A DNA stretch of 64,000 bases from Altererythrobacter sp. H2 (GTDB taxonomy: Bacteria > Pseudomonadota > Alphaproteobacteria > Sphingomonadales > Sphingomonadaceae). The notes beneath the pieces were generated by a model. The model saw nothing but the letters and a program-made list of their open reading frames with translations, made no database searches and had not been told where the DNA came from. Numbering within the stretch: position 1 is the first letter of the stretch; each line of letters begins with the position of its first letter. Shown here one piece after another: positions 21,946 through 58,347 of this stretch. The position numbers and the translations under genes are program-made. The DNA lies in contig NZ_CP141285.1 in NCBI RefSeq assembly GCF_035319885.1, forward strand, positions 1 to 64,000, written 5' to 3'.

Positions 21946-22020
21946 GCGGGCGTAGCTCAGGGGTAGAGCACAACCTTGCCAAGGTTGGGGTCGAGGGTTC
22001 GAATCCCTTCGCCCGCTCCA
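21946..22020 (+). tRNA. tRNA-Gly (GCC)
   Basis: A complete cloverleaf with encoded CCA. Acceptor stem GCGGGCG pairs with CGCCCGC, discriminator T then CCA. The anticodon stem CAACC/GGTTG encloses TTGCCAA with anticodon GCC at 21978-21980. The T-arm is GAGGGTTCGAATCCCTT. The mobile element begins directly after the CCA, so its 3' end is the probable integration site. Confidence 0.97.
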
Positions 22021-22521: not shown

Positions 22522-23517
22522 GTGTCTAATGCCAAACAGATATTGGCCATGCTGCGCAGTCGAGCGGAAGGCGACGACGAGCAGTTCTATTCGATCGCTT
22601 TGCAGGTTGCCGCTGCTGAGGCCCGGCAGGGTCGCAGAGACACCGCAAACGACTTGCGCACGGCTGTCGATACGGCGCGCGCCGCGCGCGGTGTCAGCCC
22701 ATCAATTCCTATCGTTTTCGCCCGCCCGCGCGGTGATCTTGAAGGTCTCCTCGATCTTCGCGAACCTACGGTGACGCTCGCCGACGTGATCCTCCCGGCC
22801 GCAGTCTCGGAACGGCTCGGCAATGCTCTTCTCCAGCAACGTCGACGGGACTGGCTGCGCGAGCATGGCAAGGCCCCTAACCGGCGGCTCCTGTTCGTCG
22901 GTCCGCCCGGATCGGGCAAGACCATGACCGCCGAAGCCTTGGCTGGCGAGCTGAAGCTGCCGCTCTTCATCATAAGGCTGGAGACGCTCATTACCCGCTT
23001 CATGGGTGAGACCGCCGCCAAGCTCAGGCTTGTGTTCGACGAGACCCTGCGCCGCCGCGCCGTCTATCTGTTCGATGAGTTCGATGCCGTAGGCGGGCAT
23101 CGCACGGCCTCGAACGACGTTGCCGAGATGCGCCGCGTCCTCAACAGCTTCCTTCAGTTCATGGAGGAAAAGAGCGCCACCGATAGTCCGCTCGTGGCGG
23201 CAACCAACCATCCCGAATTGCTCGATAGGGCCTTGCTGCGCCGCTTCGACGACGTGATCGAGTTCGAGCTGCCCTCGGCCGAACAGGTGCGGGCCGTGGT
23301 CAAGGCCAACCTCAAGCCGCTGAAATATCCCCGCCTGGCTTGGTCCACCATCGAGAAGGCGGCGCGCGGCCTCAGCCAGGCCGAGATTGCGCGCGCAGCC
23401 GACGAAGCCGTCAAGGCCGCGATCCTCGACCAGCGCGACCAGATCGCCACGCCCGACATCATCGCTCGCCTCGCCGAGCGCCAAGCGATGCGCACCGCGT
23501 TCTCTGCGAAACACTGA
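22522..23517 (+). CDS. ietA: AAA+ ATPase, IetA-like
   Basis: 331 residues: an N-terminal helical region, then an AAA+ domain with Walker A GPPGSGKT (about 127-134), Walker B VYLFDEFDAVGG (about 180-190), sensor ATNHPELLD and the arginine-finger region RALLRRFDD. It starts at GTG. The next gene is a subtilisin-like protease 3 nt downstream. ATPase-subtilase pairs of this kind are known as IetA/IetS: described as a toxin-antitoxin-like stability locus on pTiC58 and later listed among anti-phage gene pairs. Which role applies here is open. Its place next to the attachment site fits an element-stability function. Confidence 0.85.
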   Translation: MSNAKQILAMLRSRAEGDDEQFYSIALQVAAAEARQGRRDTANDLRTAVDTARAARGVSPSIPIVFARPRGDLEGLLDLREPTVTLADVILPAAVSERLGNALLQQRRRDWLREHGKAPNRRLLFVGPPGSGKTMTAEALAGELKLPLFIIRLETLITRFMGETAAKLRLVFDETLRRRAVYLFDEFDAVGGHRTASNDVAEMRRVLNSFLQFMEEKSATDSPLVAATNHPELLDRALLRRFDDVIEFELPSAEQVRAVVKANLKPLKYPRLAWSTIEKAARGLSQAEIARAADEAVKAAILDQRDQIATPDIIARLAERQAMRTAFSAKH

Positions 23518-23520
23518 CCT

Positions 23521-26022
23521 GTGGCGCAACACGACCGACCGCATCTCGACATTTCGGGACTGGCTCACAGCGTTGCGTTCAAATCTCCGGGCAGCAATGC
23601 CCGGCAGCGCCCGCTCATCCGCATCCGCGAGGACCACGGCCAGCGCTTGATCGCCGAACTCGCTTCGGCCTTTCAACAGGCCGAACAGGCCCGACAGAGG
23701 CCGGACGGCGTTGCGCTCCTTCCTCCGCCGGACGGCACTTTCCTTGAAGTGGAGCTGTCGCCGCAAGCCGGCCCGACCACGCTCGAACGCACGCGGGAGA
23801 AAACCCGGCAAGGCGCTGTGACCTTCACCGAACAAGGCGCGCGTCGCATCGCCTTGTTCGTGCCCGACGACATGCGCGACACGCTCGAAGCGGTGTTCCA
23901 GGATTACACTTTCGGGCCGCTCAACGAGCGCACCGGCTCGCCCAAAGGGAAAACCCGCGTCGAGACGATCGAGCATATCCGCGAAGCGCGCATCCGCACC
24001 TTCTGGCGGGACGATCCCGCCGCATTGCCTGAAGACCCTCAAGCGGAAATGTGGTGGTCGCTGTGGTGCTTCCGCGACAGGGTTGACCGCGTTCTCGAAG
24101 CCGCCGCCCAGCTTGGGCTCCATGTCGGCGAGGGCGACACCTTCCTGCGCTTTCCCGAAACCATCGTCGTTCCAGTCTATGGTCGCCGTGCCGCGATCGA
24201 GTTGTTGCTGTTCGCCACTGGCGGCATTGCCGAGCTGCGGCGCGCCAGCGACAATCCTCATGTTTTCACCCATGACCTGCGCGACGAGGCGCGCGCGTTC
24301 ATCGAAGACCTTGCCGAACGGACGATCTGGCCCGGCCGCGAGGCGCCGGCCATCTGCCTCCTCGATACCGGCGTCAATCGTGCCCATCCGCTCATCGAGC
24401 CCGCCCTGGCGGTCGAAGACCTCTTGAGCGTCGATCCCGCCTGGGGCGGTGACGATCATGCGCCAGGCTCCGGCCACGGCACCGGCATGGCGGGATTGGC
24501 GCTGCACGGCGACCTCGTGGCGCCCTTGGCCGATCAGGAACAGCGACGCCTTACCCACCGACTGGAGTCGGTCAAAATCCTGCCGCCCGCAGGTTTTCCC
24601 CCAAACGACCCGCACGCTTACGGTCCCATCACCCAAGGCGCCATCGCACGCGCCGAAATCCAGAACCCTGACCGAGCGCGTATGTTCTGCATGGCCGTTA
24701 CCAATGGTGGACGTAGCGGTGCCGACGCGACTGCATGGAGCGCCGCCATCGACCAGGCCGCGGCCGGCGCCGAATCCGAGGATCAGGAGAACCCGGCGCC
24801 CAAGAGGCTCATCGTCCTCGCCGCCGGCAATGTCCCCGACCACGCCGATCCGGCTGAGATCGCGGACACCGATGCCTTTCCGGCCGAAGATCCCTGTCAG
24901 GCTTGGAATGCGCTTGCGATCGGCGGCTACACCGAAAAGAGCCAGATCGCGGAAGCCGGCTACGAGGGCTGGACGCCGATGGCGACCGTCGGCGCCGGAA
25001 GCCCCTACAGCCGCACCTCCTACCTCTGGCGCTCGGGCCAATCGCCGTTCAAGCCCGACCTCGTGTTCGAGGCAGGCAACCGGGCGATCAGCCCCGCGAA
25101 AACTGAAGCGATTGCCGGCCTCGACTCTCTTTCGCTTCTGACCACCGCGCGCGATGTCGGTCAGCGCCCGCTCGACAGCTTCTGGGCGACCAGCGCGGCG
25201 ACCGCGCAGGCGGCCCGCTTAGCCGCGCAGATCGCGGCAGACCATCCCGACTATTGGCCGGAAACCATCCGGGCGCTGATGGTCCATAGTGCGCGCTGGA
25301 CCCCGCCCATGACCGAGGCCATCGCTGCCTGCGCGGCCAAGCGCGACAAGGCGGATTGTCTCCGCCGCTATGGTTACGGCCTTCCCGGCCTTGCCCGCGC
25401 TCGCGCATCCGCGATCAACGATCTCGCGCTTGTCGCCCAAAGGGAGATTCAGCCCTTCCGCAAGGAGGCGTCAGGCATCCGCTTCAACGAGGCCCATGTC
25501 TATCCGCTGCCCTGGCCACGCCAGATTCTCGAAGACCTCGACAATCTGCGTGTGCGGCTGAAGGTGACGCTCTCCTATTTCATCGAGCCCAATCCCAGTT
25601 TCGCCACGGCAATCGACCCGGCGCGCTACCAATCCTTCGGCCTTCGCTTTGACTTGAAACGGTCGCGGGAGACCACCGCGAACTTCCTGCGCAGGAACAA
25701 CGCAGAAGGGCGCGAGGAGAATGACCCGCGGCCGGTGAATGAGAATAATGATGGCTGGCTGTTCGGTGAGCGCGCCATCTCGGCCGGATCGCTGCATGTC
25801 GACATCTGGGAAGGCCCGGCCGTCGAGCTTGCCGCCCGGAACATGCTTTATATCCACCCGATCACCGGCTGGTGGCGGGAGCGAACCGGGCTCAAGCGCT
25901 TCAACGACAGAGCACGTTACGCCTTGATCGTCAGCCTTGAGACGCCGGAAGCGGAAGTCGATCTCTATACTCCGATCGAAACGGCCATCCCGACACTGAT
26001 CGGCGTCGAAATCGAAGGATAA
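23521..26022 (+). CDS. ietS: S8 subtilisin-like serine protease, IetS-like
   Basis: 833 residues with no signal peptide, so cytoplasmic. The catalytic triad is visible: Asp in CLLDTGVN (about 281), His in GSGHGTGMAG (about 319), and Ser in FWATSAATAQAARLA (about 557). About 270 residues before the protease domain and 270 after it have no family I recognise. It starts with GTG three bases after the ietA stop, so the two are one transcript. In the pTiC58 work the protease is the toxin-like partner of the ATPase; transfer of that role here is inference. Confidence 0.85.
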   Translation: MAQHDRPHLDISGLAHSVAFKSPGSNARQRPLIRIREDHGQRLIAELASAFQQAEQARQRPDGVALLPPPDGTFLEVELSPQAGPTTLERTREKTRQGAVTFTEQGARRIALFVPDDMRDTLEAVFQDYTFGPLNERTGSPKGKTRVETIEHIREARIRTFWRDDPAALPEDPQAEMWWSLWCFRDRVDRVLEAAAQLGLHVGEGDTFLRFPETIVVPVYGRRAAIELLLFATGGIAELRRASDNPHVFTHDLRDEARAFIEDLAERTIWPGREAPAICLLDTGVNRAHPLIEPALAVEDLLSVDPAWGGDDHAPGSGHGTGMAGLALHGDLVAPLADQEQRRLTHRLESVKILPPAGFPPNDPHAYGPITQGAIARAEIQNPDRARMFCMAVTNGGRSGADATAWSAAIDQAAAGAESEDQENPAPKRLIVLAAGNVPDHADPAEIADTDAFPAEDPCQAWNALAIGGYTEKSQIAEAGYEGWTPMATVGAGSPYSRTSYLWRSGQSPFKPDLVFEAGNRAISPAKTEAIAGLDSLSLLTTARDVGQRPLDSFWATSAATAQAARLAAQIAADHPDYWPETIRALMVHSARWTPPMTEAIAACAAKRDKADCLRRYGYGLPGLARARASAINDLALVAQREIQPFRKEASGIRFNEAHVYPLPWPRQILEDLDNLRVRLKVTLSYFIEPNPSFATAIDPARYQSFGLRFDLKRSRETTANFLRRNNAEGREENDPRPVNENNDGWLFGERAISAGSLHVDIWEGPAVELAARNMLYIHPITGWWRERTGLKRFNDRARYALIVSLETPEAEVDLYTPIETAIPTLIGVEIEG

Positions 26023-26403: not shown

Positions 26404-26570
26404 GTGCTTGGGGCGCTGCCCCTGGCGCACTTCGGAACGTCTTCCGCCCAGCTTCCTGCGCTTCGCTCCGTGCAGCCGGTTCCCCGCGAAGCCGTCCCTC
26501 CGTTTGCACCCCCGGTCTCGCCGACGGGCAGGGTTTCAGCGCGGCGCTTCCCGCTGCGCGGAAACCCAAG
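26404..26570 (+). promoter_or_regulatory. Conserved structured leader, copy A (before ParB-like gene)
   Basis: A ~167-nt stretch ending 10 nt before the ParB-like ATG that reappears at 31571-31742 before a different gene. The 52 nt from CCGTTTGCACCCCCGG onward are identical in both copies. Predicted stems: GGGG-CGCTG-CCCC near the 5' end, and GGGTTTC...GGAAACCC enclosing CAGCG...CGCTG at the 3' end. The closing hairpin sits immediately upstream of the AAGGAGTAGGAAG ribosome-binding region, as in translational leaders. No known RNA family is assigned. Confidence 0.65.
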
Positions 26571-26580
26571 GAGTAGGAAG

Positions 26581-28689
26581 ATGACCAAGATTGTTCAGAT
26601 CGAAACCAGTGCCGCCGAGCCGGTGTCGGGCATCGAGATTTTCGTGCCCCTCAACAAGCTCAAGAAGTCGCCGAAGAATGCGCGAAAGGTGCCGCACGGC
26701 GAGGCAGCGATCGAGGCGCTGGCGGCGTCCATCCAGCACAAGGGGATGATCCAGAACCTTGTCGTGGAACCGGAGACGAAGGACGGCGTGCCGACCGGCT
26801 GCTATTTCGTCACCGCTGGCGAGGGCCGGAGGCTGGCGCAGTTGCTGCGCGCCAAGCGCAAGCAGATCAAACGGACGCAGCCCATCCGCTGCTATCTCGA
26901 CACCGAGAACGACGCGGCGGAGATCAGCCTTGACGAGAATGTCACCCGGACGCCGATGCACCCCGCCGACCAGTTCGAGCGGTTCCATGAACTGTCCCGC
27001 GACAAGGGATGGGGTGCGGAGGAAATCGGTGCGCGGTTCGGCGTGTCCCCTGATGTGGTGAAGCGGCGGCTGCGTCTCGGTGCGATCAGCCCGAAGCTGA
27101 TGGATGTGTATCGGCAAGACGGCCTTACGCTCGACCAACTGGCCGCGTTCACCATCACCGACGACCATGCCCGGCAGGAGCAGGTCTTCGAGAACCTGTC
27201 ATGGAACAAGGAGCCGTGGATCATCCGGCGCGATCTTACCGCAAGCAATATCCCGGCGACTGACCGGCGGGCGGTGTTTATCGGGGCGGACGCCTATGTC
27301 GAGGCGGGCGGCACGATCATCCGTGACCTGTTCACCGAGGATGACGGTGGTTTCTTCGAGGATGCAGGCTTGCTCGATACGCTTGTGGTGGAGCGGTTGC
27401 GCGAGATCGCCGGGGAGGTTCTGGCCGAGGGCTGGAAATGGGGCGAGGTCAGCATCGACTTCCCCCACGGTCATGGGATGCGGCGTTATTATCCGCAGCA
27501 TATCGCCCTGTCCGATAAGGACGAGGTGCGGCTGTCGGAGGCAGCGGAAGCCCATGATGCGCTGATCGAAGGCTATGACTCTTATGAGGACATGCCCGAG
27601 GCCGTGGCGGCGAAGGCGCAGGCGTTGAGCGACGAGATCGATGCGCTCTGCGCCAAGCGTTCTGCCTATGATCCTGCGGTGATCGAGCGTGGCGGCGTTT
27701 TCGTTTCGCTCGGCTCCACCGGCGAGGTGAAGATCGAGCGCGGTTATGTCCGTGCCGAGGACGAGCCGCAGCCGGAAGCGGACCCGGAGGACGACAGCGA
27801 CGGCATCCGTGTGGAGGACGGCGGAGCCAACGAACACGACGAGGATGCGGACGAAGAAGTGGAATTGGGGGAGGCCGACGCGGGCAAGCCCATTTCCGAC
27901 AGCCTCATTCGTGACCTCACGGCGCATCGGACGCTCGGCCTTCGTCTGGCCCTTGGCGAGCAGCCCGACATGGCGATGGTCGCGTTGACCCACGCGCTGG
28001 TGCTGGACCTGTTCTATCATGGGTTCGGCAAGTCCTGTCTCACCGTCACCGCCAAGAGCGAAGACCTCACCACCCACGCCGAGGGCATCGCGAACACCGA
28101 GGCGGGCGAGGCGCTGGCGGCGCGGCATGACCAGTGGGGCGAGCAGCTTCCGGGTGAGACGGCGGACCTGTGGTCGTTTCTCGCCGGGCTGGACGCCGAA
28201 AGCCGCACCGCATTGCTGGCGCATTGCGTGTCGCTCACCGTCAATGCGGTGAAGGTGCCGTGGGAACGTCCCGTCACCCGCATCGAGGCGGCGGACGGGC
28301 TGGCGCAGGCCATCGGGCTCGACATGACGGCGACGTGGACCGCGAACACGCGTAGCTATTTCGGGCGCGTCACCAAGGCTCATATCGCGCAGGCGGTGAG
28401 CGAGGCCATCTCCCCGGAGGCAGCGGAGCGCATCCAGCCGTTGAAGAAGGAAGCAATGGCCGACGAGGCGGAGCGGCTTGTCGCCGGAACGGGATGGTTG
28501 CCAACTGTGTTGCAAACCGTCGAGCCGGAAGCCGAAGCGCCGGAGGCCGTGGAGGTGAAGGAGGAGGATTTCGAGACGGACGCGCAGCCGTCCGAAGCGG
28601 AGGCCCCCAATACCGAAGCGCAGGACGGCGGGGATATGGTGGAGCCGTTGGAAGGCGAGCAGTCGCACTATGCGGTAGCCGCTGAATAG
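26581..28689 (+). CDS. ParB/RepB/Spo0J-like nuclease-partition family protein
   Basis: 702 residues. The N-terminal ParB-type domain is clear: VPLNKLKKSPKNARKVPHGE, then IEALAASIQHKGMIQNLVV, the ParB box-like TAGEGRRLAQLLRA, and a helix-turn-helix HPADQFERFHEL ... IGARFGVSPDVVKRRLRLG (about 120-160). The C-terminal half is long, with an acidic stretch (EDEPQPEADPEDDSDG) and an acidic tail. Large ParB-like proteins of this kind are typical of ICE and plasmid early regions. There is no parA in the window, so partition in the usual sense is doubtful. AAGGAG precedes the ATG. Confidence 0.88.
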   Translation: MTKIVQIETSAAEPVSGIEIFVPLNKLKKSPKNARKVPHGEAAIEALAASIQHKGMIQNLVVEPETKDGVPTGCYFVTAGEGRRLAQLLRAKRKQIKRTQPIRCYLDTENDAAEISLDENVTRTPMHPADQFERFHELSRDKGWGAEEIGARFGVSPDVVKRRLRLGAISPKLMDVYRQDGLTLDQLAAFTITDDHARQEQVFENLSWNKEPWIIRRDLTASNIPATDRRAVFIGADAYVEAGGTIIRDLFTEDDGGFFEDAGLLDTLVVERLREIAGEVLAEGWKWGEVSIDFPHGHGMRRYYPQHIALSDKDEVRLSEAAEAHDALIEGYDSYEDMPEAVAAKAQALSDEIDALCAKRSAYDPAVIERGGVFVSLGSTGEVKIERGYVRAEDEPQPEADPEDDSDGIRVEDGGANEHDEDADEEVELGEADAGKPISDSLIRDLTAHRTLGLRLALGEQPDMAMVALTHALVLDLFYHGFGKSCLTVTAKSEDLTTHAEGIANTEAGEALAARHDQWGEQLPGETADLWSFLAGLDAESRTALLAHCVSLTVNAVKVPWERPVTRIEAADGLAQAIGLDMTATWTANTRSYFGRVTKAHIAQAVSEAISPEAAERIQPLKKEAMADEAERLVAGTGWLPTVLQTVEPEAEAPEAVEVKEEDFETDAQPSEAEAPNTEAQDGGDMVEPLEGEQSHYAVAAE

Positions 28690-28805: not shown

Positions 28806-29435
28806 CTACCAAGCTCCGCGCGCTATTGTGGGGGGTAATGTGAGATGCCGCACGATTCCGTCGTTGCTGCCCATGCTGATCGTCGGCCGCTGCTTCCCGC
28901 GCCGGCTCCCGAACCACGCCTCGGCTATGCCCAACAGGTCGGTATTGATCGGGCGGCTCAGGAAATGGTCGATCAATTCCTCGCTCAGATCGGGATCAGG
29001 AAAGACCATATAGTCGCCCGTAGCCTGTAAATCGTCCAGGCTCTGCTTGTCGTCCTCAAGGCGTTTCTGGAACATCTTGCGCGGGAGCACGACATCGGGT
29101 TGGGCAATGGCGAACGACTCAGCGTAGATCGGCGCCATAAAGTCGATGACATGATCTTTCGTCTGCACCCACATATGGAAGCCATCGTTGCCCCAACTGA
29201 ACTTACCGCCCTCATCCTTGCCATAGAAGATGCACTTGGGAGCATCATCGACACAGAGCGCGAATCCGCCCGCAACCGCCGTGGCGGCAATTCCGTAGTG
29301 CTTATTCAACAGATACGACCCGACGATCGAGAAGAACGTGCAACCACGTTCAACATTCCCCTCATCTTTGATGACGCCATGAATAATCTGATGGACCCGG
29401 TTATATTCGGGCATTGGCAGAACAAATTTGCTCAT
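28806..29435 (-). CDS. DUF2026 family protein
   Basis: 209 residues starting MSKFVLPMPEYNRVHQIIHG. The pattern CTFFSIVGSYLLNKHYGIAA, GNDGFHMWVQ and DHVIDFMAPIY resembles the DUF2026 family, whose Cys/His/Asp arrangement suggests a papain- or transglutaminase-like fold (inference). No function is known. It lies in the ICE cargo region on the opposite strand to the ICE backbone, downstream of a 110-residue gene with which it probably forms an operon (43-bp gap). Confidence 0.7.
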   Translation of the reverse strand: MSKFVLPMPEYNRVHQIIHGVIKDEGNVERGCTFFSIVGSYLLNKHYGIAATAVAGGFALCVDDAPKCIFYGKDEGGKFSWGNDGFHMWVQTKDHVIDFMAPIYAESFAIAQPDVVLPRKMFQKRLEDDKQSLDDLQATGDYMVFPDPDLSEELIDHFLSRPINTDLLGIAEAWFGSRRGKQRPTISMGSNDGIVRHLTLPPTIARGAW

Positions 29436-29478
29436 GGACACTCCGCAGTCACATCGGCCGAGCCTTGATTGCCTTGGA

Positions 29479-29811
29479 TCAACCGAACAAGCCAGGCAGC
29501 AACGGCAGGGGCTCGCCGCGTGCCGCGCGGGCCGCATTACCTGCGGAGGCTACCGTCACCCATTCCACGCGCCAGTCGAGCCGTAGCACATCGGCAGCAC
29601 CGTCGCGCTGAATCTGCGCGATGCCTGCGCCTTCCTCACTGACAACGAAACGGCAAGCGTTGTCGTCGACATAAGCGGCTTCGATCAGCGTGCCGTCCGA
29701 AACGCTGATCCAACAACGGCCAGCAGCCCCTGGTGGCACCGCTAACTCCGCCTCGATGTCCCCCGTCACTTTCAATCTGGCACGGTCTTCGCCGCGGATC
29801 ATCACGCTCAT
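29479..29811 (-). CDS. Hypothetical protein
   Basis: 110 residues beginning MSVMIRGEDRARLKVTGDIE, with a GAGGAA ribosome-binding site just before the ATG. The start and internal spacing suggest an all-beta domain, but no family is recognised. It precedes the DUF2026 gene on the same strand and is probably cotranscribed with it. Confidence 0.55.
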   Translation of the reverse strand: MSVMIRGEDRARLKVTGDIEAELAVPPGAAGRCWISVSDGTLIEAAYVDDNACRFVVSEEGAGIAQIQRDGAADVLRLDWRVEWVTVASAGNAARAARGEPLPLLPGLFG

Positions 29812-30447
29812 ACGCCGTTCCTCACACTGTCGATTCGGAGAGTGGCAATGTGGAACAAATAAGGAACAATATGCAAGGGTATTGCGGCAAGACGCGGCGT
29901 GGATTGCCATCGGTCAGGGCGTAGCGGCCGACGCTCGCCCTATAGGTGCAAGGCGGGTAGGCCGACGAGCGGCTTCAATCCGAGCCTGTTTCCCAGCGCG
30001 TCATCCTCGCTGGTTTCCCGGCAGCGCAGTGCCACCGTCCACAGATGTCGCTATCGGGCGGAAACTGGGGCCAGCGTGGTTTCTCTTCACCTTGTTCCAT
30101 GCTCTCTCTGCATCAGCCAATCAGGGCATGATTACCGGGATCGCCGCACGTGGAAGCGCCCGATTGCCTCACCACATTGTTAGTCCCGAGATCCTCCACG
30201 ACACGACCGCCACACGGCCTCTCGAAAGGCTTGTCTGGCCGAGGTTCGCCCGCCTTCCCGCAACAGCAGCGGGCGGCTTTTTTCCGCCGCCGGGCGAGCC
30301 CGGCTTTGCATCGCGAAGCAAAAAAGCCGCCCGCTGCCGCCAGCCACTGCGTTCTGTCCTTCGGATGCAGGTCGGTCATCCCCCGTCCGGGCGACAGCCA
30401 TCGAGGCCGCAATGGGTGCGGTCCCGAGGCAAGAAAGGACTGACGAC
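29812..30447. other. Intergenic region upstream of DUF736 gene
   Basis: About 636 bp with no credible gene. It must hold the promoter of the divergent 29811 gene and of the DUF736 gene. Its main feature is the perfect 18-bp inverted repeat listed separately. Confidence 0.5.
30266..30337. repeat. Perfect 18-bp inverted repeat, bidirectional terminator-like
   Basis: GCAGCGGGCGGCTTTTTT at 30266-30283 and its exact reverse complement at 30320-30337. The 36 nt between contain two small hairpins (CGGGC-GA-GCCCG and GCTT...GAAGC). On either strand the outer arm ends in a run of T, so the structure could end transcription in both directions. Confidence 0.65.
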
Positions 30448-30747
30448 ATGATCCGCGGCATCTTCACCACCACTGAGAATGGCTACACCGGCGAAATACG
30501 CTCCTTCGGAGTCCGTGAGCAGGTTGAATTGCGCCGGGTTGAAGGCAAGGACAACGACAAGGCGCCTGACTTTCGCATCCATCCAGTCGACGACGATCGC
30601 ATCGACTTCGGCGCTGCATGGGCGAAGACAAGCAAGGAGAACAGGGCTTACGTCTCGTTCAAGCTGACCCTCCTTGGTGGCACGCCGGTCTATCTCAGGC
30701 TGTTCAAGGACGAAACGAGCGGCACTTACGAGCTGGTTTCCGACTGA
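30448..30747 (+). CDS. DUF736 family protein (first copy)
   Basis: 99 residues starting MIRGIFTTTENGYTGEIRSF, ending SGTYELVSD. This is the DUF736 family, small all-beta proteins found almost only on alphaproteobacterial ICEs and plasmids, function unknown. A good AAAGGA site precedes the ATG. A second, diverged member lies at 37078-37410 in the transfer operon; this one stands alone with its own terminator-like stem. Confidence 0.85.
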   Translation: MIRGIFTTTENGYTGEIRSFGVREQVELRRVEGKDNDKAPDFRIHPVDDDRIDFGAAWAKTSKENRAYVSFKLTLLGGTPVYLRLFKDETSGTYELVSD

Positions 30748-30752
30748 TCCTA

Positions 30753-30786
30753 TAGCGCCCCGACCATCCAACGGAGCGGGGCGCTA
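30753..30786. terminator. Stem between convergent DUF736 and AbiGi-like genes
   Basis: TAGCGCCCCG (30753-30762) and CGGGGCGCTA (30777-30786) form a perfect 10-bp stem between two convergent stops. There is no T-tract on either side, so termination strength is uncertain. Confidence 0.55.
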
Positions 30787-30800
30787 CACTCTCGGCCATC

Positions 30801-31454
30801 TCACGGGAACAGGACGCTATTGACCTGCTCTAAGCTCCAATAGGGATCAATGAATGGACATTTATAGCTGGGTCCGAGCTGCTCCTGTTCTGCATCCTCG
30901 AAAAAAGCCTTGGCAGCATCGTGCAGGCCTTCAGGAATAATGAGAAATGCTGGATCGGATTCCTCGAAACTGAGGTCGCCAACGATCCGCCATTCGCGTT
31001 CCCATTCGAAGAAATAAGAGGCGCTGCCGTATAATCCCGGCTGATCGACAAAGGGCGCGATCTTCCAGACAGGACTTTCGGGGTCGCCGACCGATTCTTG
31101 TATCATCGCTCGCAGCGCCAGTGCGTGCGGCGTATCTTGATACGCATACATGATCGGTCCGCCGGCTCGTGCGACGATGAAATCTTTTCGAAATCCGATG
31201 CCATAAGACCCTCGCTTGTCTGCGAGGCGTTTGAGTTGATGAAGCGGCACCTCGCTAAAACACACGCATTTCGGGGATTCGGCGTAATTCTTTCCGCTTC
31301 CGAAGCGATTGCGTGCCTCAACCCTCCTCTCAGAAAGAATAGATATTGAATTGTCATATTCACTCTGATGGGCGGACTTTTTTGTGAAATGAACTACGAA
31401 CGGAGACATATCGTGCCAATCTGGATGTGTTGACCCGACTAATTTCTGCGTCAC
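30801..31454 (-). CDS. AbiGi/DUF2971-like protein, candidate phage-defence cargo
   Basis: 217 residues. Ordered motifs: FVVHFTKK near the N-terminus, KCVCFSEVPLHQLKRLADKR, YGIGFRKDFI, GGPIMYAYQD and EWEREWRIVGDL. These resemble the AbiGi antitoxin family of abortive phage resistance and the related DUF2971 proteins. No partner toxin is next to it, so a working abortive system is not shown. It lies in a cargo position on the strand opposite the ICE backbone. Confidence 0.6.
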   Translation of the reverse strand: MTQKLVGSTHPDWHDMSPFVVHFTKKSAHQSEYDNSISILSERRVEARNRFGSGKNYAESPKCVCFSEVPLHQLKRLADKRGSYGIGFRKDFIVARAGGPIMYAYQDTPHALALRAMIQESVGDPESPVWKIAPFVDQPGLYGSASYFFEWEREWRIVGDLSFEESDPAFLIIPEGLHDAAKAFFEDAEQEQLGPSYKCPFIDPYWSLEQVNSVLFP

Positions 31455-31570: not shown

Positions 31571-31742
31571 GTGCTTGGGGCTCTGCCCCCGGCGCACTCC
31601 AAGCGGCTTCCGCCCAGCTTCCTCCACGCAGCAGCCGCGTTCCGTGCAGCCGGTTCCCCGCGAAGCCGCGTTCCGTTTGCACCCCCGGTCTCGCCGACGG
31701 GCAGGGTTTCAGCGCGGCGCTTCCGCTGCGCGGAAACCCAAG
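31571..31742 (+). promoter_or_regulatory. Conserved structured leader, copy B (before DUF932 gene)
   Basis: A ~172-nt copy of the leader at 26404-26570. Stem GGGG-CTCTG-CCCC keeps the arms while the loop differs (CGCTG in copy A), and the closing hairpin GGGTTTC...GGAAACCC is kept although its loop is one base shorter. This one-base difference breaks any shared reading frame, which favours an RNA rather than a peptide. It ends 19 nt before the DUF932 ATG. The rest of the gap (31455-31570) holds nothing recognised. Confidence 0.65.
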
Positions 31743-31761
31743 CCCAATGAAAGGAAGACCC

Positions 31762-32607
31762 ATGACCATCCACCACCTTGCTACCCGGTTCGGCCGCAAC
31801 AGTCATCAGATCGGCGGTTATGAGCCGCTCGACAATGAGGCGCTGTATCGCCACGTCCCGTCCATCTTCGCCCGCGAGGCGCACGACAGCCGTTCCGAGC
31901 GGTATGTCTATGTCCCCACCATCGACATCGTTGAGGGGTTGCGCCGGGAAGGATGGTTCCCGTTCTTCGCCGTGCAGTCCGTCCCCCGCGACGGCAGCCG
32001 CCACGGCCACGCCAAGCACATGCTGCGCCTGCGCCGGGATGAGGGTATCGGCAAGCCCGAGGCGGCCGAGGTCATCATCGTGAACAGCCACGATGGCACC
32101 AGCGCATATCAGATGTTCGCCGGTATGCTGCGTTTCGTCTGCACCAACAGCATGATTGCAGGCGAGCGGTTCGAGGAGGTCCGCGTGCCGCACAAGGGCA
32201 ATATCGAGCACGACATTATCGAGGGCGTTTACACCGTGGCCGAGGACTTCCCCCGGCTGATCGACGCCAGCGCGGCAATGAAGGAGGTTCGGTTGTCCGA
32301 GGTTGAGCAGCGCTTGCTTGGCGAGGTCAGCCTTGTCGCCCGCTATGGCGACGATGAAAGCCCGCTCACCCCCGAGCAGATCATCGCGCCGCGCCGCTAC
32401 GAGGATCGGGGCGATAGCCTGTGGACCACGTTCAACGTGATACAGGAGAACGTCATTCGGGGCGGATTGCATGGCCACAAGCACAATGCCGAGGGCCGTA
32501 TCCGCCGCAGCCGTTCGCGCCCGATCAACGGCATCGACCAGAATGTGACGCTCAATCGCGCGCTCTGGACACTGGCCGAGGGGATGCAGCGCCTCAAGAC
32601 GGGTTAA
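31762..32607 (+). CDS. DUF932 family (ICE/plasmid) protein
   Basis: 281 residues starting MTIHHLATRFGRN. Segments FFAVQSVPRDGSRHGHAKHM, FAGMLRFVCTNSMIAGERF and RALWTLAEGMQRLKTG match the DUF932 family (phage/plasmid-like protein, sometimes named after YfdQ/YfjQ-type or LGT proteins), function unknown. The ATG at 31762 follows GAAAGGAAGACCC and is preferred over one 15 bp upstream. It shares its leader with the ParB-like gene. Confidence 0.83.
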   Translation: MTIHHLATRFGRNSHQIGGYEPLDNEALYRHVPSIFAREAHDSRSERYVYVPTIDIVEGLRREGWFPFFAVQSVPRDGSRHGHAKHMLRLRRDEGIGKPEAAEVIIVNSHDGTSAYQMFAGMLRFVCTNSMIAGERFEEVRVPHKGNIEHDIIEGVYTVAEDFPRLIDASAAMKEVRLSEVEQRLLGEVSLVARYGDDESPLTPEQIIAPRRYEDRGDSLWTTFNVIQENVIRGGLHGHKHNAEGRIRRSRSRPINGIDQNVTLNRALWTLAEGMQRLKTG

Positions 32608-38316: not shown

Positions 38317-38422
38317 GCGGCTCCCGCGCGCTCTGGCGGGTTTCGGCGCACGCTTTCGCAGCGCCGGAAGGGAGCAGGGCTGACTTTCTGAAGGGGGAAG
38401 CTGGAGGGCAAGATAAAGGGCG

Positions 38423-38562
38423 GCAATGTGCGGAGCCCCTGCGCCTCGGTTGTGGCCTTGATTCTCAAGGCTTTTGGTCATTGCTGCGCAATGTGCGCGG
38501 AAACCGCGCAATGTGCGGCGAGAGCCGAAAACCAGCAGACAGCAGGGTTTGCCGCACATTGC
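38423..38562. repeat. Four CGCAATGTGCG dyad sites upstream of the relaxase
   Basis: GCAATGTGCGG at 38423-38433, GCAATGTGCGC at 38488-38498, GCAATGTGCGG at 38508-38518, and the inverted CCGCACATTGC at 38552-38562. The second to fourth include the dyad CGCA-ATG-TGCG; the second extends to GCGCA-ATG-TGCGC. The two middle copies start 20 bp apart. The region is 14-150 bp from the relaxase ATG, where oriT and the relaxase promoter would be expected. No nick site was identified. Confidence 0.6.
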
Positions 38563-38575
38563 GGCGTTCCGCGTC

Positions 38576-40306
38576 ATGAGCCGTGACGATGATTTCCGTG
38601 TCCGGCCAGGGCGTATCCGCTCGCGGGGAAGCCAGCGCGCGCTCCCGATCATTGCCCAGGCGCTTGCCGCCGCCCAGCGTGCGGGCGGTCATGTTTCGCG
38701 CCGTGGCCGCATCGTCGCGCCGGGGCGCTCGACCTTCGGGCGGGGCCGCGTGGCGAGCGTGCGCGCCACCCACCGGCTCGGCCACCGATCGCGCCAGGTC
38801 GTCGTCAAGGCGCGCGTGGTCCGGCATGGCGGCCGCGCCTCGCTCGCCGCCCATCTCAACTATCTGCAACGCGATGGCGTCACCCGCGACGGCGAGCGGG
38901 GCGTGCTGTTCGGCGCCGAGGCGGACGGCCTCGACCGCAACGAGTTTGCGGCGCGCTGTGAGGACGACCGCCATCATTTTCGCTTCATCGTCTCGCCCGA
39001 GGACGCCGAGCAGATGCGCGACCTCAAGGGCTTCACCCGCGAACTGATGACGCGAATGGAAAAGGATCTCGGCACCCGCCTGGACTGGCGCGCGGTCGAG
39101 CACTGGAACACCGACAACCCCCATGTCCACATCATCGTGCGGGGCGTCGCCGAGGACGGGCAGAACCTCGTTATTTCGCGCGACTATATCCGCGAAGGGA
39201 TGCGGGCGACTGCGCGCGAGATAGTCACCCAGGAACTCGGCCTGCGCACCGACCTTGAAATCCGGCAGTCGCTGGAGCGGCAGGTCGAGGCCGAACGCTG
39301 GACCGAGATCGACCGCGACCTTTCCCGCGCCATGCAGCGCGACGGGCTGATCGACATGGCGCCTGAGCCCGGCGTGCGGCCGGATGGCGACCATGTGCTG
39401 AGGATGGGGCGGCTGCGCAAGCTGGAGCGCCTCGGCCTCGCCAGCGAGATCGCGCCCGGCAAGTGGACGCTGGCTGGCGGCGCCCAGGCGGCGCTGCGGG
39501 AGCTGGGCGAGCGCGGCGACATCATCAAGCGGATGCACAAGGCGATGAGCGACCGCGGCATCGACCGGGGCGCCGGCAGCTATGTCCTCGACGCCGATCC
39601 GGCCCAGCCCGTTATCGGCAGGCTGGTCGATCGCGGCTTGCATGACGAGCTGACCGGCAAAGCCTATGCGATCGTGGACGGCATCGACGGGCGCACCCAC
39701 CACATCCGCTTTTCCGACATCGAGGCGACCGGCGATTGCAAGCCGGGCGCGATCGTCGAGCTGCGCCATTTCGAGGACCGCAAGGGCCGGCAGCGGGTGG
39801 CGCTCGCCGTCCGGTCGGACGCGGACTTGTCCGCGCAGGTCCACGCGCCGGGCGCCACCTGGCTCGACCGCCGCAACCTGTCGAGCGACGGCCGCGACCT
39901 CGGCGGCGGCTTCGGGACCGAGGTGCGCGCCGCGATGGAGGCCCGCGCCGAGCATCTGGCCGATGAAGGGCTGGCGCGGCGGCAGGGCCAGCGCATCATC
40001 TTCGCACGCAACCTGCTCGACACGCTGCGGCGGCGCGAACTCGACGTGGCCACCAAGGACTTGTCGGCCGAAATTGGCCTGCCGCACGCGCCGTCCAAGG
40101 CCGGGGAATATGTCGCGGGCACGGCGCGACAGCGCGTCACGCTCGCCTCGGGCCGCTTCGCCATGATCGACAACGGGTTGAGCTTCCAGCTCGTGCCCTG
40201 GTCCCCGTCGCTCGACCGCCAGATCGGCAAACATATCTCGGGCGTCATGCGGACCAATGGCGGCGTCGATTGGTCATTTGGGAGAGGACGAGGGCTGGGG
40301 CTTTAG
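38576..40306 (+). CDS. Relaxase/mobilisation nuclease, DUF3363 type (RlxS-like)
   Basis: 576 residues. It begins MSRDDDFRVRPGRIRSRG and has a catalytic-His region HWNTDNPHVHIIVRG (about 172-186) like MOBP-type relaxases, then a long C-terminal region (SRDYIREGMRATAREIVTQE and further) of the DUF3363 type, seen in rhizobial and sphingomonad ICEs. It should nick oriT and pilot the strand. The ATG at 38576 is preferred; a longer frame upstream runs through the repeat sites. TraG follows after two cargo genes. Confidence 0.87.
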   Translation: MSRDDDFRVRPGRIRSRGSQRALPIIAQALAAAQRAGGHVSRRGRIVAPGRSTFGRGRVASVRATHRLGHRSRQVVVKARVVRHGGRASLAAHLNYLQRDGVTRDGERGVLFGAEADGLDRNEFAARCEDDRHHFRFIVSPEDAEQMRDLKGFTRELMTRMEKDLGTRLDWRAVEHWNTDNPHVHIIVRGVAEDGQNLVISRDYIREGMRATAREIVTQELGLRTDLEIRQSLERQVEAERWTEIDRDLSRAMQRDGLIDMAPEPGVRPDGDHVLRMGRLRKLERLGLASEIAPGKWTLAGGAQAALRELGERGDIIKRMHKAMSDRGIDRGAGSYVLDADPAQPVIGRLVDRGLHDELTGKAYAIVDGIDGRTHHIRFSDIEATGDCKPGAIVELRHFEDRKGRQRVALAVRSDADLSAQVHAPGATWLDRRNLSSDGRDLGGGFGTEVRAAMEARAEHLADEGLARRQGQRIIFARNLLDTLRRRELDVATKDLSAEIGLPHAPSKAGEYVAGTARQRVTLASGRFAMIDNGLSFQLVPWSPSLDRQIGKHISGVMRTNGGVDWSFGRGRGLGL

Positions 40307-57498: not shown

Positions 57499-58347
57499 TC
57501 AAAGTGCGATCAACAGCGGAACGGTCGTGTCGGTCAGCAGCGGGCGCGTCACCCCGCCCAGCAGCATCTCGAACAGGAGCGGGTGGCTGTAGGCGCCGAT
57601 GACGAGGAGGTCCGCGTCCTGGTCGGCCGTGAAGGACAGGATCGCCTCGGCGACGGACTGATCTCCCGCCTCTATCCGCTCGACCTCGACGGCCTCGACA
57701 TCGTGGCGGGCAAGATAGTGGGCCATGTCGGTGCCGGGATAGGGGCCGTGCTTCTCGGGATGGCGGTCGGCATCGACCAGCAGCACTTTCACCCATTCGG
57801 ATCGCGCGAGGAACGGCATGGCGTCGACGATGCCCCGGCGGGCCTGCCGACTGCCGTTCCAGGCGATCACGGTCCTGCTTCCGATACGCGCTCCCTCCCA
57901 TTGCGCGGGCACGATCAGCACCGGCGTTCCGGCATTCAGCAACAGTTGATCGGGACGCAGGCTCGACACGCGCTCGGGCATGGGATGCGCGAGGATCAGA
58001 AGGTCGCAATGGAGTGCGTGCGCTGTCAGATCGAGATCGTCTCCCTGTCGCCAGATCAAACGGAACTCGACACTCAGATCGTAGCGATGGGAGAGTTCCG
58101 CCAGAAACGTCTCTGCCTTGAGCACCTTGCTGTCGTGCTCGGAACGCATGTGGGTGAGGACGTCACCGATCGCCTCCTTGCCGACGGCATAGCTGCCACT
58201 CAGCGAGACCTCCGGGTTGGCCGCACTGTAGATGGCAATCAGATGCGCGCCATGGCGCTTGGCGAGCCGCGCGGCATGGTCCGCCACATTGTTATCACGC
58301 TGCGTTTCATCGACGACGACAGCAATGACCTTGAAACTGCTGAACAT
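57499..58347 (-). CDS. Universal stress protein, tandem domain
   Basis: 282 residues with two UspA-like domains; the second has the ATP-binding pattern with VIGAYSHPLLFEMLLGGVTR near the C-terminus. It lies 53 bp upstream of the LysR gene and 118 bp downstream of the efflux operon, on the same strand. Role in stress is family knowledge; its place here suggests cargo. Confidence 0.85.
   Translation of the reverse strand: MFSSFKVIAVVVDETQRDNNVADHAARLAKRHGAHLIAIYSAANPEVSLSGSYAVGKEAIGDVLTHMRSEHDSKVLKAETFLAELSHRYDLSVEFRLIWRQGDDLDLTAHALHCDLLILAHPMPERVSSLRPDQLLLNAGTPVLIVPAQWEGARIGSRTVIAWNGSRQARRGIVDAMPFLARSEWVKVLLVDADRHPEKHGPYPGTDMAHYLARHDVEAVEVERIEAGDQSVAEAILSFTADQDADLLVIGAYSHPLLFEMLLGGVTRPLLTDTTVPLLIAL

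Follow-up and report, generated by a model that had tools for sequence, protein, structure and literature searches.

A duplicated hairpin leader in an Alphaproteobacterial ICE is probably a single-stranded-DNA promoter

Within the window analysed here (positions 1 to 64,000 of the Altererythrobacter sp. H2 contig NZ_CP141285.1, that is, the whole stretch of 64,000 nucleotides), two genes of an ICE, encoding a ParB-like protein and a DUF932 protein, are each preceded by one copy of a structured leader (Table 1), and each of these leaders is likely to be a single-stranded-DNA promoter that resembles Frpo of the F plasmid in its action and is unrelated to it in sequence. The duplication, first reported in an initial annotation made from the sequence alone, is real and forms part of a large family. 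The coordinates given there were confirmed by blastn, with 87% identity between the copies (26404-26570 vs. 31571-31742), and the 52 nt of ungapped identity correspond to a longest identical stretch of ~52-53 nt as counted by eye. No third copy was detected in the 3.24-Mb genome by blastn, and the covariance model likewise found these two only. On the coding (plus) strand, the leader consists, from 5' to 3', of the hairpin H1, the long hairpin P2 (with outer and inner stems, the latter termed P2b, and a variable tip), the short stem H4 with a near-fixed TCGCC loop, the ~36-nt hairpin H5, a ribosome site and the ATG. Both copies keep H1 (GGGGC..GCCCC) and H5 (GGGTTTC..GAAACCC), as originally described, including the difference of one base between the H5 loops.

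Table 1 Coordinates of the leaders, their parts and associated features in the window
Feature	Position	Strand	Remarks
Leader copy A (type 1)	26404..26570	+	5' of ParB-like gene; covariance model R1 match 26432-26579, E 2.7e-14
H1 copy A	26410..26422	+	GGGGC-GCT-GCCCC; from sequence
P2 copy A	26434..26498	-	outer arms 26434-26444 / 26488-26498; pairing read from sequence; presumed folding strand
P2b copy A	26448-26452 / 26475-26479		A.C on + strand
H4 copy A	26511..26528	.	conserved loop TCGCC
H5 copy A	26531..26567	+	basis: stem diversity, pooled G.U bias
ParB-like leading-region gene	26581..28689	+	702 aa; PF02195 E 1e-4, below family cut-off
Leader copy B (type 1)	31571..31742	+	5' of DUF932 gene; covariance model R1 match 31599-31751, E 2.1e-15
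H1 copy B	31577..31589	+	from sequence
P2 copy B	31603..31669	-	outer arms 31603-31610 / 31662-31669; pairing read from sequence; presumed folding strand
P2b copy B	31614-31618 / 31649-31653		
H4 copy B	31684..31701	.	
H5 copy B	31704..31739	+	
DUF932 leading-region gene	31762..32607	+	281 aa from homologous start; PF06067
Predicted oriT region	38317..38572	.	between SLT transglycosylase gene and relaxase; alignment of 11 ICEs (window and ten others)
Predicted nic core	38406..38415	-	minus strand TATCTTG/CCC; near-invariant GGGCAAGATA; predicted nick between 38409 and 38408; transferred strand would run left
Relaxase gene, MobA/VirD2-like, DUF3363	38474..40306	+	PF03432, PF11843

The two downstream genes are mutually unrelated, yet both are homologues of leading-region genes of the F plasmid: the ParB-like protein of the window shares 32% identity with the F ParB-like protein (E 5e-66), and the DUF932 protein 49% identity with F DUF932 (E 4e-97). 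The initial annotation had called them two unrelated genes, which is correct for their relation to each other, but they are not a random pair, and both are probably sent early into the new cell by the mobile element. The DUF932 gene most likely starts at the ATG at 31762 (MTIHHLATRFGRN), 22 nt past H5, and not at 31747, because its homologues start likewise. A similar gene content is found behind the other copies of the leader, 109 of which yielded 106 ORFs and, after exclusion of 13 ORFs of 41-110 aa, 93 proteins. The domains detected among these are HTH_ParB (34), DUF932 (22), ParB_N (21; this set may overlap with HTH_ParB), ArdA (7) and Sigma70_r4_2 (3), together with one each of RadC, ArdC, DNA methylase, DUF3768, DUF3991/Toprim, MerR, TIR and a few others. 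In the window, the interval that separates the two downstream genes (28806-31454) contains minus-strand cargo genes, whose products include a DUF2026 protein and an abortive-infection protein of AbiGi type.

With one copy used as the blastn query, 59 plasmid records and, counting the genome of the window itself, 17 of the 385 class genomes were matched. R1, a covariance model whose 22 source copies were anchored with the type 2 pattern (A4) and include none from the window, detected the leader at E <= 0.001 in 26 genera of the class (28 of 372 genomes) and in 24 of 398 phylum genomes, two of these 24 outside the class, the window's own genome being included in both counts. Chance duplication is far exceeded by the plasmid matches and by the class genomes found in either search. 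The anchored copies sort by sequence into type 1, to which both window copies belong, and type 2. A pattern scan of species genomes returned at least 119 stretches; among the 80 listed with titles, most are from Alphaproteobacteria, and two from Pseudomonas and one bin each of Solidesulfovibrio and Bryobacteraceae are also present. The copies reside mostly on Alphaproteobacterial plasmids and ICEs, 5' of leading-region genes (ParB-like, DUF932, ArdA), and in some elements two or three of them face the same way, as in Sphingobium pDE2, where they precede the DUF3768, ParB and ArdC genes. By blastn, the leader had no match in the phage collection. One contig was matched among the viral contigs, and the best match in R388 was insignificant (E 0.39). 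In a Sinorhizobium plasmid (L022:18628-20151) and a Roseibium plasmid (L024:18631-20150), an IS110 transposase gene ends ~120 nt 5' of the leader, at equal distance in both, and the leader may be a target of IS110. In two chromosome-sized contigs (L011:1501-1534 of G379 and L012:1501-1528 of G380), the conserved H4 block is present with an H5-like hairpin and no P2 recognisable by eye.

Both main hairpins, P2 and H5, covary. For the model structure, 85 distinct rows were aligned to R1, an alignment that is fitted to that structure and so biased towards it; in these rows, 94.2% of the cells are paired vs. 76.8% after shuffling, both sides change in 18 of the 28 pairs (366 cells vs. 131 +/- 11 shuffled), and the covariation score is 0.352 vs. 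0.096 +/- 0.006 shuffled, falling to 0.075 or less when the structure is slid by 1-3 columns. A fifth measure, which takes in further pair types, is weaker (41 vs. 37.5; reached by 28 of 500 shuffles). The sequences of the P2 arms vary widely while the pairing is kept. H5 lies outside the scored structure, and its best hairpins comprise 65 distinct stems among 104 copies, a few of them poor. The spacing of the parts is near-fixed across copies, the distance from TGCA to the H4 loop being mostly 56-58 and that from the H4 loop to the start codon having a median of 66; a GGG/CCC hairpin 5' of P2 is present in 106 of 109 copies, and an ATG with a loosely defined ribosome site follows the leader in 98 of 109. 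In line with the initial annotation, copies are present in sphingomonad and rhizobial genomes 5' of ParB-like and DUF932 genes, with many compensatory changes.

Pairing in itself is compatible with folding of either strand, and the strands can be told apart by the mispairs. Loss of one base from a G-C pair leaves G.T or A.C; of these, the folding strand tolerates G.T but not A.C, which is however equivalent to G.T on the other strand. The two mispairs were scored alike, so that no preference was built in, and changes were counted by parsimony on a tree. From 121 anchored rows, 115 passed the stem cut and 109 unique copies made up the first set, in which (a few copies having been entered twice) the outer stem of P2 showed 28 A.C and 5 G.T changes, and H5 2 A.C and 19 G.T. 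The final set of 131 copies joins 106 of the first set with 25 found later, 5 matches of wrong spacing and 44 identical ones having been dropped. Pooled over these 131 copies, A.C prevails in the outer stem of P2 (26 A.C, 8 G.T; p 0.003) and in the inner stem P2b (32 and 4; p 2e-6), and G.T in H5 (5 and 21; p 0.002); the contrast with H5 is significant both for P2 and P2b together (Fisher p 1e-8) and for the outer stem alone (p 2e-5). One inner pair is A-C in 72 copies, G-C in 39, A-T in 11, C-G in 3 and G-T in 2, with four others.

The asymmetry was repeated in the 25 later copies alone for P2b (6 A.C, 0 G.T; p 0.03) and was absent from their outer stem (3 and 4) and H5 (4 and 3). By type, the outer stem gave 10 A.C and 2 G.T in type 1 (p 0.04) and 15 and 6 in type 2 (p 0.08, not significant). 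Among copies placed by the model, 83 that come mostly from the first set gave 41 A.C and 9 G.T, and 35 mostly divergent ones, with a few rows from the first set and with poor helices included, 11 of each; unanchored helices, a set that also includes poor ones, gave 13 and 16. We read the mispair signal as likely to be real for types 1 and 2; in H5 and in the divergent copies it is unproven. The coding strand carries more T than A at 4-fold sites of 84 downstream genes (AT skew -0.34, a value that is also shaped by codon choice); since drift on such a background would favour G.T, the A.C excess of P2 runs against it, and the G.T excess of H5 may partly reflect it. By predicted DNA folding energy, P2 is more stable on the minus strand in 103 of 109 copies, and H5 on the plus strand in 71, but the advantage of P2 is mostly a matter of base composition, the difference being -3.73 kcal/mol in the real and -2.96 in the shuffled sequences, with a small remainder (71 of 109; p 4e-4). 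On the pooled counts, P2 and H5 seem to fold on different strands, P2 on the template strand and H5 on the mRNA strand, and the pooled asymmetry favours a putative assignment of P2 in both window copies to the minus strand. Once checked on larger control sets, the mispair test could separate DNA hairpins from RNA hairpins elsewhere.

The direction of transfer was predicted by homology. The gene order of the window, DUF736, SLT transglycosylase, relaxase and TraG, resembles that of ICEMlSymR7A, the oriT of which is located between msi107 and the relaxase gene (PMC11963761); msi107 is described as a transglycosylase, and DUF736 is also reported (PMC8627217). When the region between these two genes was aligned for the window and ten other ICEs, a near-invariant block, GAGGGCAAGATA, was seen at 38404-38415, the minus strand of which, TATCTTG/CCC, is one base off the MOBP consensus (C/T)ATCCTG(C/T), described as being cleaved at its G or immediately after it, the relaxase being attached to the 5' end (PMC3772185). 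From the homology of the nic core, the minus strand, which is the template strand of the leaders, should be the one transferred, with the region to the left entering first. Both leaders would then lie in the leading region with their genes pointing at oriT, the P2 hairpins being ~6.7 and 11.9 kb from the predicted nick. The relaxase itself probably starts ~100 nt later than the ORF, given that homology begins at residue 33-38. A second GGGCAAGATA occurs at 57708-57717 in the same strand sense, probably by chance.

The orientation of the leader is near-invariant across the family. We surveyed 67 leader places, located by pattern in 55 genomes or records, for relaxase matches (E <= 0.001) and found one within 30 kb on the same contig for 42 of them, on 34 contigs. 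In 41 of these 42 cases, many of which share one ICE backbone and are thus not independent, the leader points at the relaxase, and 41 are on the strand of the relaxase gene; nine of the 42, including the one upstream case, rest on relaxase matches below the family cut-off. Among the copies missed by the pattern, three in pDE2 and two in each of two Caulobacter plasmids agree in direction. The same two Caulobacter plasmids each carry one extra copy (L028:14912-15078, plus strand; L031:10286-10381, minus strand) with the direction reversed relative to the others; these copies are located between mobC and the leading genes, their H5 is degenerate and the ribosome site is not clear. A 17-kb Nitrosospira plasmid with a copy is too small for the direction to be judged, and in two copy-bearing plasmids the nearest relaxase match is more than 30 kb away.

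Taken as a promoter, the leader would act as follows. The relaxase would nick the minus strand at ~38408, and on the homology of nic this strand would enter the recipient 5' end first, so that the region left of 38.4 kb would be the first to arrive. While single, the complement of P2 would form a long imperfect hairpin mimicking double-stranded promoter DNA, the folding strand being that indicated by the pooled mispair asymmetry. RNA polymerase or another host polymerase could then start RNA between P2 and H5 and proceed rightwards along the transferred strand, and H5, which its pooled G.U bias weakly suggests to be an RNA hairpin, would come to lie at or near the 5' end of the mRNA, ahead of the ribosome site and the coding sequence. 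If the analogy with F holds, both proteins would be made at once on entry, and second-strand synthesis would destroy the hairpin and turn the promoter off; more speculatively, the same transcript may prime second-strand synthesis. The main gap in this explanation is the missing sigma-70 boxes: no sigma-70-type promoter was detected on either strand of either leader in a scan that covered boxes other than composite ones from mispaired arms. Another host sigma factor, a bubble-driven start or a primase may be involved instead.

The closest parallel is the F plasmid, where non-coding repeats 5.39 kb apart are located 5' of ssb/ParB-like/psiB and 5' of DUF932. By position, with the gene names of the paper matched to the annotation used here, these are Frpo2 and Frpo1, respectively. 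Deletion of Frpo1 and Frpo2 is reported to abolish the early signal in the three fusions tested, and expression of the F leading genes to cease after second-strand synthesis (PMC9849209). The leaders share the leading-region position, with genes facing oriT, with Frpo1 and Frpo2 of F and with ssi2 and ssi3 of ColIb-P9; with Frpo1 and Frpo2, they also share repeats ~5 kb apart and homologous ParB-like and DUF932 genes downstream; and they may have a hairpin on the transferred strand in common with Frpo and ssi, as judged here from the pooled mispairs. In ten distinct coding-strand hairpins of F/IncI type, one pair is A-T, G-C or A.C and never G.T (by eye), and all mispairs together amount to 23 A.C and 8 G.T, in what is a small control with some poor folds. 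In contrast, R1 had no match at E up to 1 in six loci (F, ColIb-P9 and four E. coli plasmids), and the leaders, which are very GC-rich, have no sequence homology to Frpo/ssi. In Frpo, -10 and -35 boxes are reported to be reconstituted, whereas no sigma-70-type site was found in the window leaders, which have the further hairpins H1, H4 and the mRNA-type H5. The RP4 leading region likewise shows early (zygotic) induction in the leading part of the transferred strand, but the authors of that work report having identified no single-strand promoter in it (PMC7314908).

Several observations fit a cis-regulatory RNA, the reading of the initial annotation, in which a double-strand promoter upstream drives transcription of the whole leader, which then folds in the mRNA and controls translation or attenuation: H5 covaries and in the pooled set prefers G.U on the mRNA strand, and a fixed distance separates the end of the leader from the start codon, mostly with a ribosome site. 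The claim of a structured, non-coding element common to two early ICE genes with many compensatory changes stands. The claim that it is mainly RNA is not supported, since in P2, the largest covarying part, pooled A.C, a mispair that would not be tolerated in an RNA helix, exceeds G.U on the mRNA strand, most mispairs reading as G.T on the template strand, and the strand that enters first appears to serve as template for the genes; only H5 is RNA-like, and less securely so. Nor does an RNA switch need the near-invariant orientation to the relaxase, and no terminator-like site was detected at H5 in the window. At the gathering threshold of Rfam 15, the only match in the window is a tRNA (21946-22017), and at E up to 5 three weak sub-threshold matches appear in the window, none in the leaders, in agreement with the earlier statement that no named RNA family fits. 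We accordingly regard this reading as unlikely. The one signal proposed to act on both genes would most likely be the entry of single-stranded DNA into the recipient and not a ligand or an RNA-binding protein.

Somewhat less probable still is that the leader is an ssi/sso at which RNA polymerase or primase primes the second strand on the transferred strand, gene expression being a side effect. Such a function would suit several GC-rich hairpins on that strand and multiple copies in some elements; Frpo is described as a promoter that also serves as a primer site (PMC11541004, in the title of one of its references; PMC7736820), and ICEBs1, also an ICE, has a single-strand origin, sso1, that like other sso consists of several stem-loops active only when single-stranded (PMC4595007). 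However, sso1 is a priming site for which the account consulted mentions no link to a start codon, and priming alone does not require the near-fixed distance to a start codon with its ribosome site (98 of 109 copies) seen here. An antisense RNA from the minus strand, with P2 folding as RNA of the other strand and controlling the gene, would leave the same strand asymmetry as template-strand DNA, but a sigma-70-type promoter and, on the minus strand, a terminator-like site are lacking from both leaders, and the orientation towards oriT is left unexplained; this reading is very improbable. Least probable of all is a duplex operator or a binding site of ParB type, in which the inverted repeats would be recognised in double-stranded form, which the strongly conserved blocks and fixed spacing would suit, but in which there are no mispairs to tolerate, so that strand asymmetry is not expected, and which does not account for P2 arms that vary widely with pairing kept.

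Beyond the single-stranded-DNA promoter as such, we tentatively suggest, with somewhat less than even confidence, that the leaders represent a separate widespread class of these promoters, mainly in Alphaproteobacteria, of an origin independent of Frpo and without sigma-70 boxes, working as a two-strand device with one hairpin in the transferred DNA and the next in its mRNA. Experimental descriptions of single-strand promoters were found for F- and IncI-type plasmids (PMC9849209, PMC7736820), and a literature search of licensed PMC papers, preprints excluded, yielded, among the matches listed, no description of one in Alphaproteobacteria. Two large surveys targeted Frpo/ssi sequences and sigma-70-box relatives (PMC11541004, PMC12826799), that of Samuel et al. 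among them, which searched for homologues of five known Frpo/ssi sequences and for candidates with sigma-70 boxes; such surveys would probably overlook a GC-rich family that lacks these boxes. The proposal, if correct, would explain how anti-restriction and establishment proteins are synthesised on entry of Alphaproteobacterial ICEs and plasmids, including pAgK84, would provide a marker for leading regions and would make the question of the polymerase directly testable.

Finally, the tRNA gene detected with Rfam is a possible left edge of the ICE and a possible integration site. Beside it (22522-26022), an AAA ATPase gene is directly followed by a subtilase (S8) gene, and the two might constitute a defence pair.
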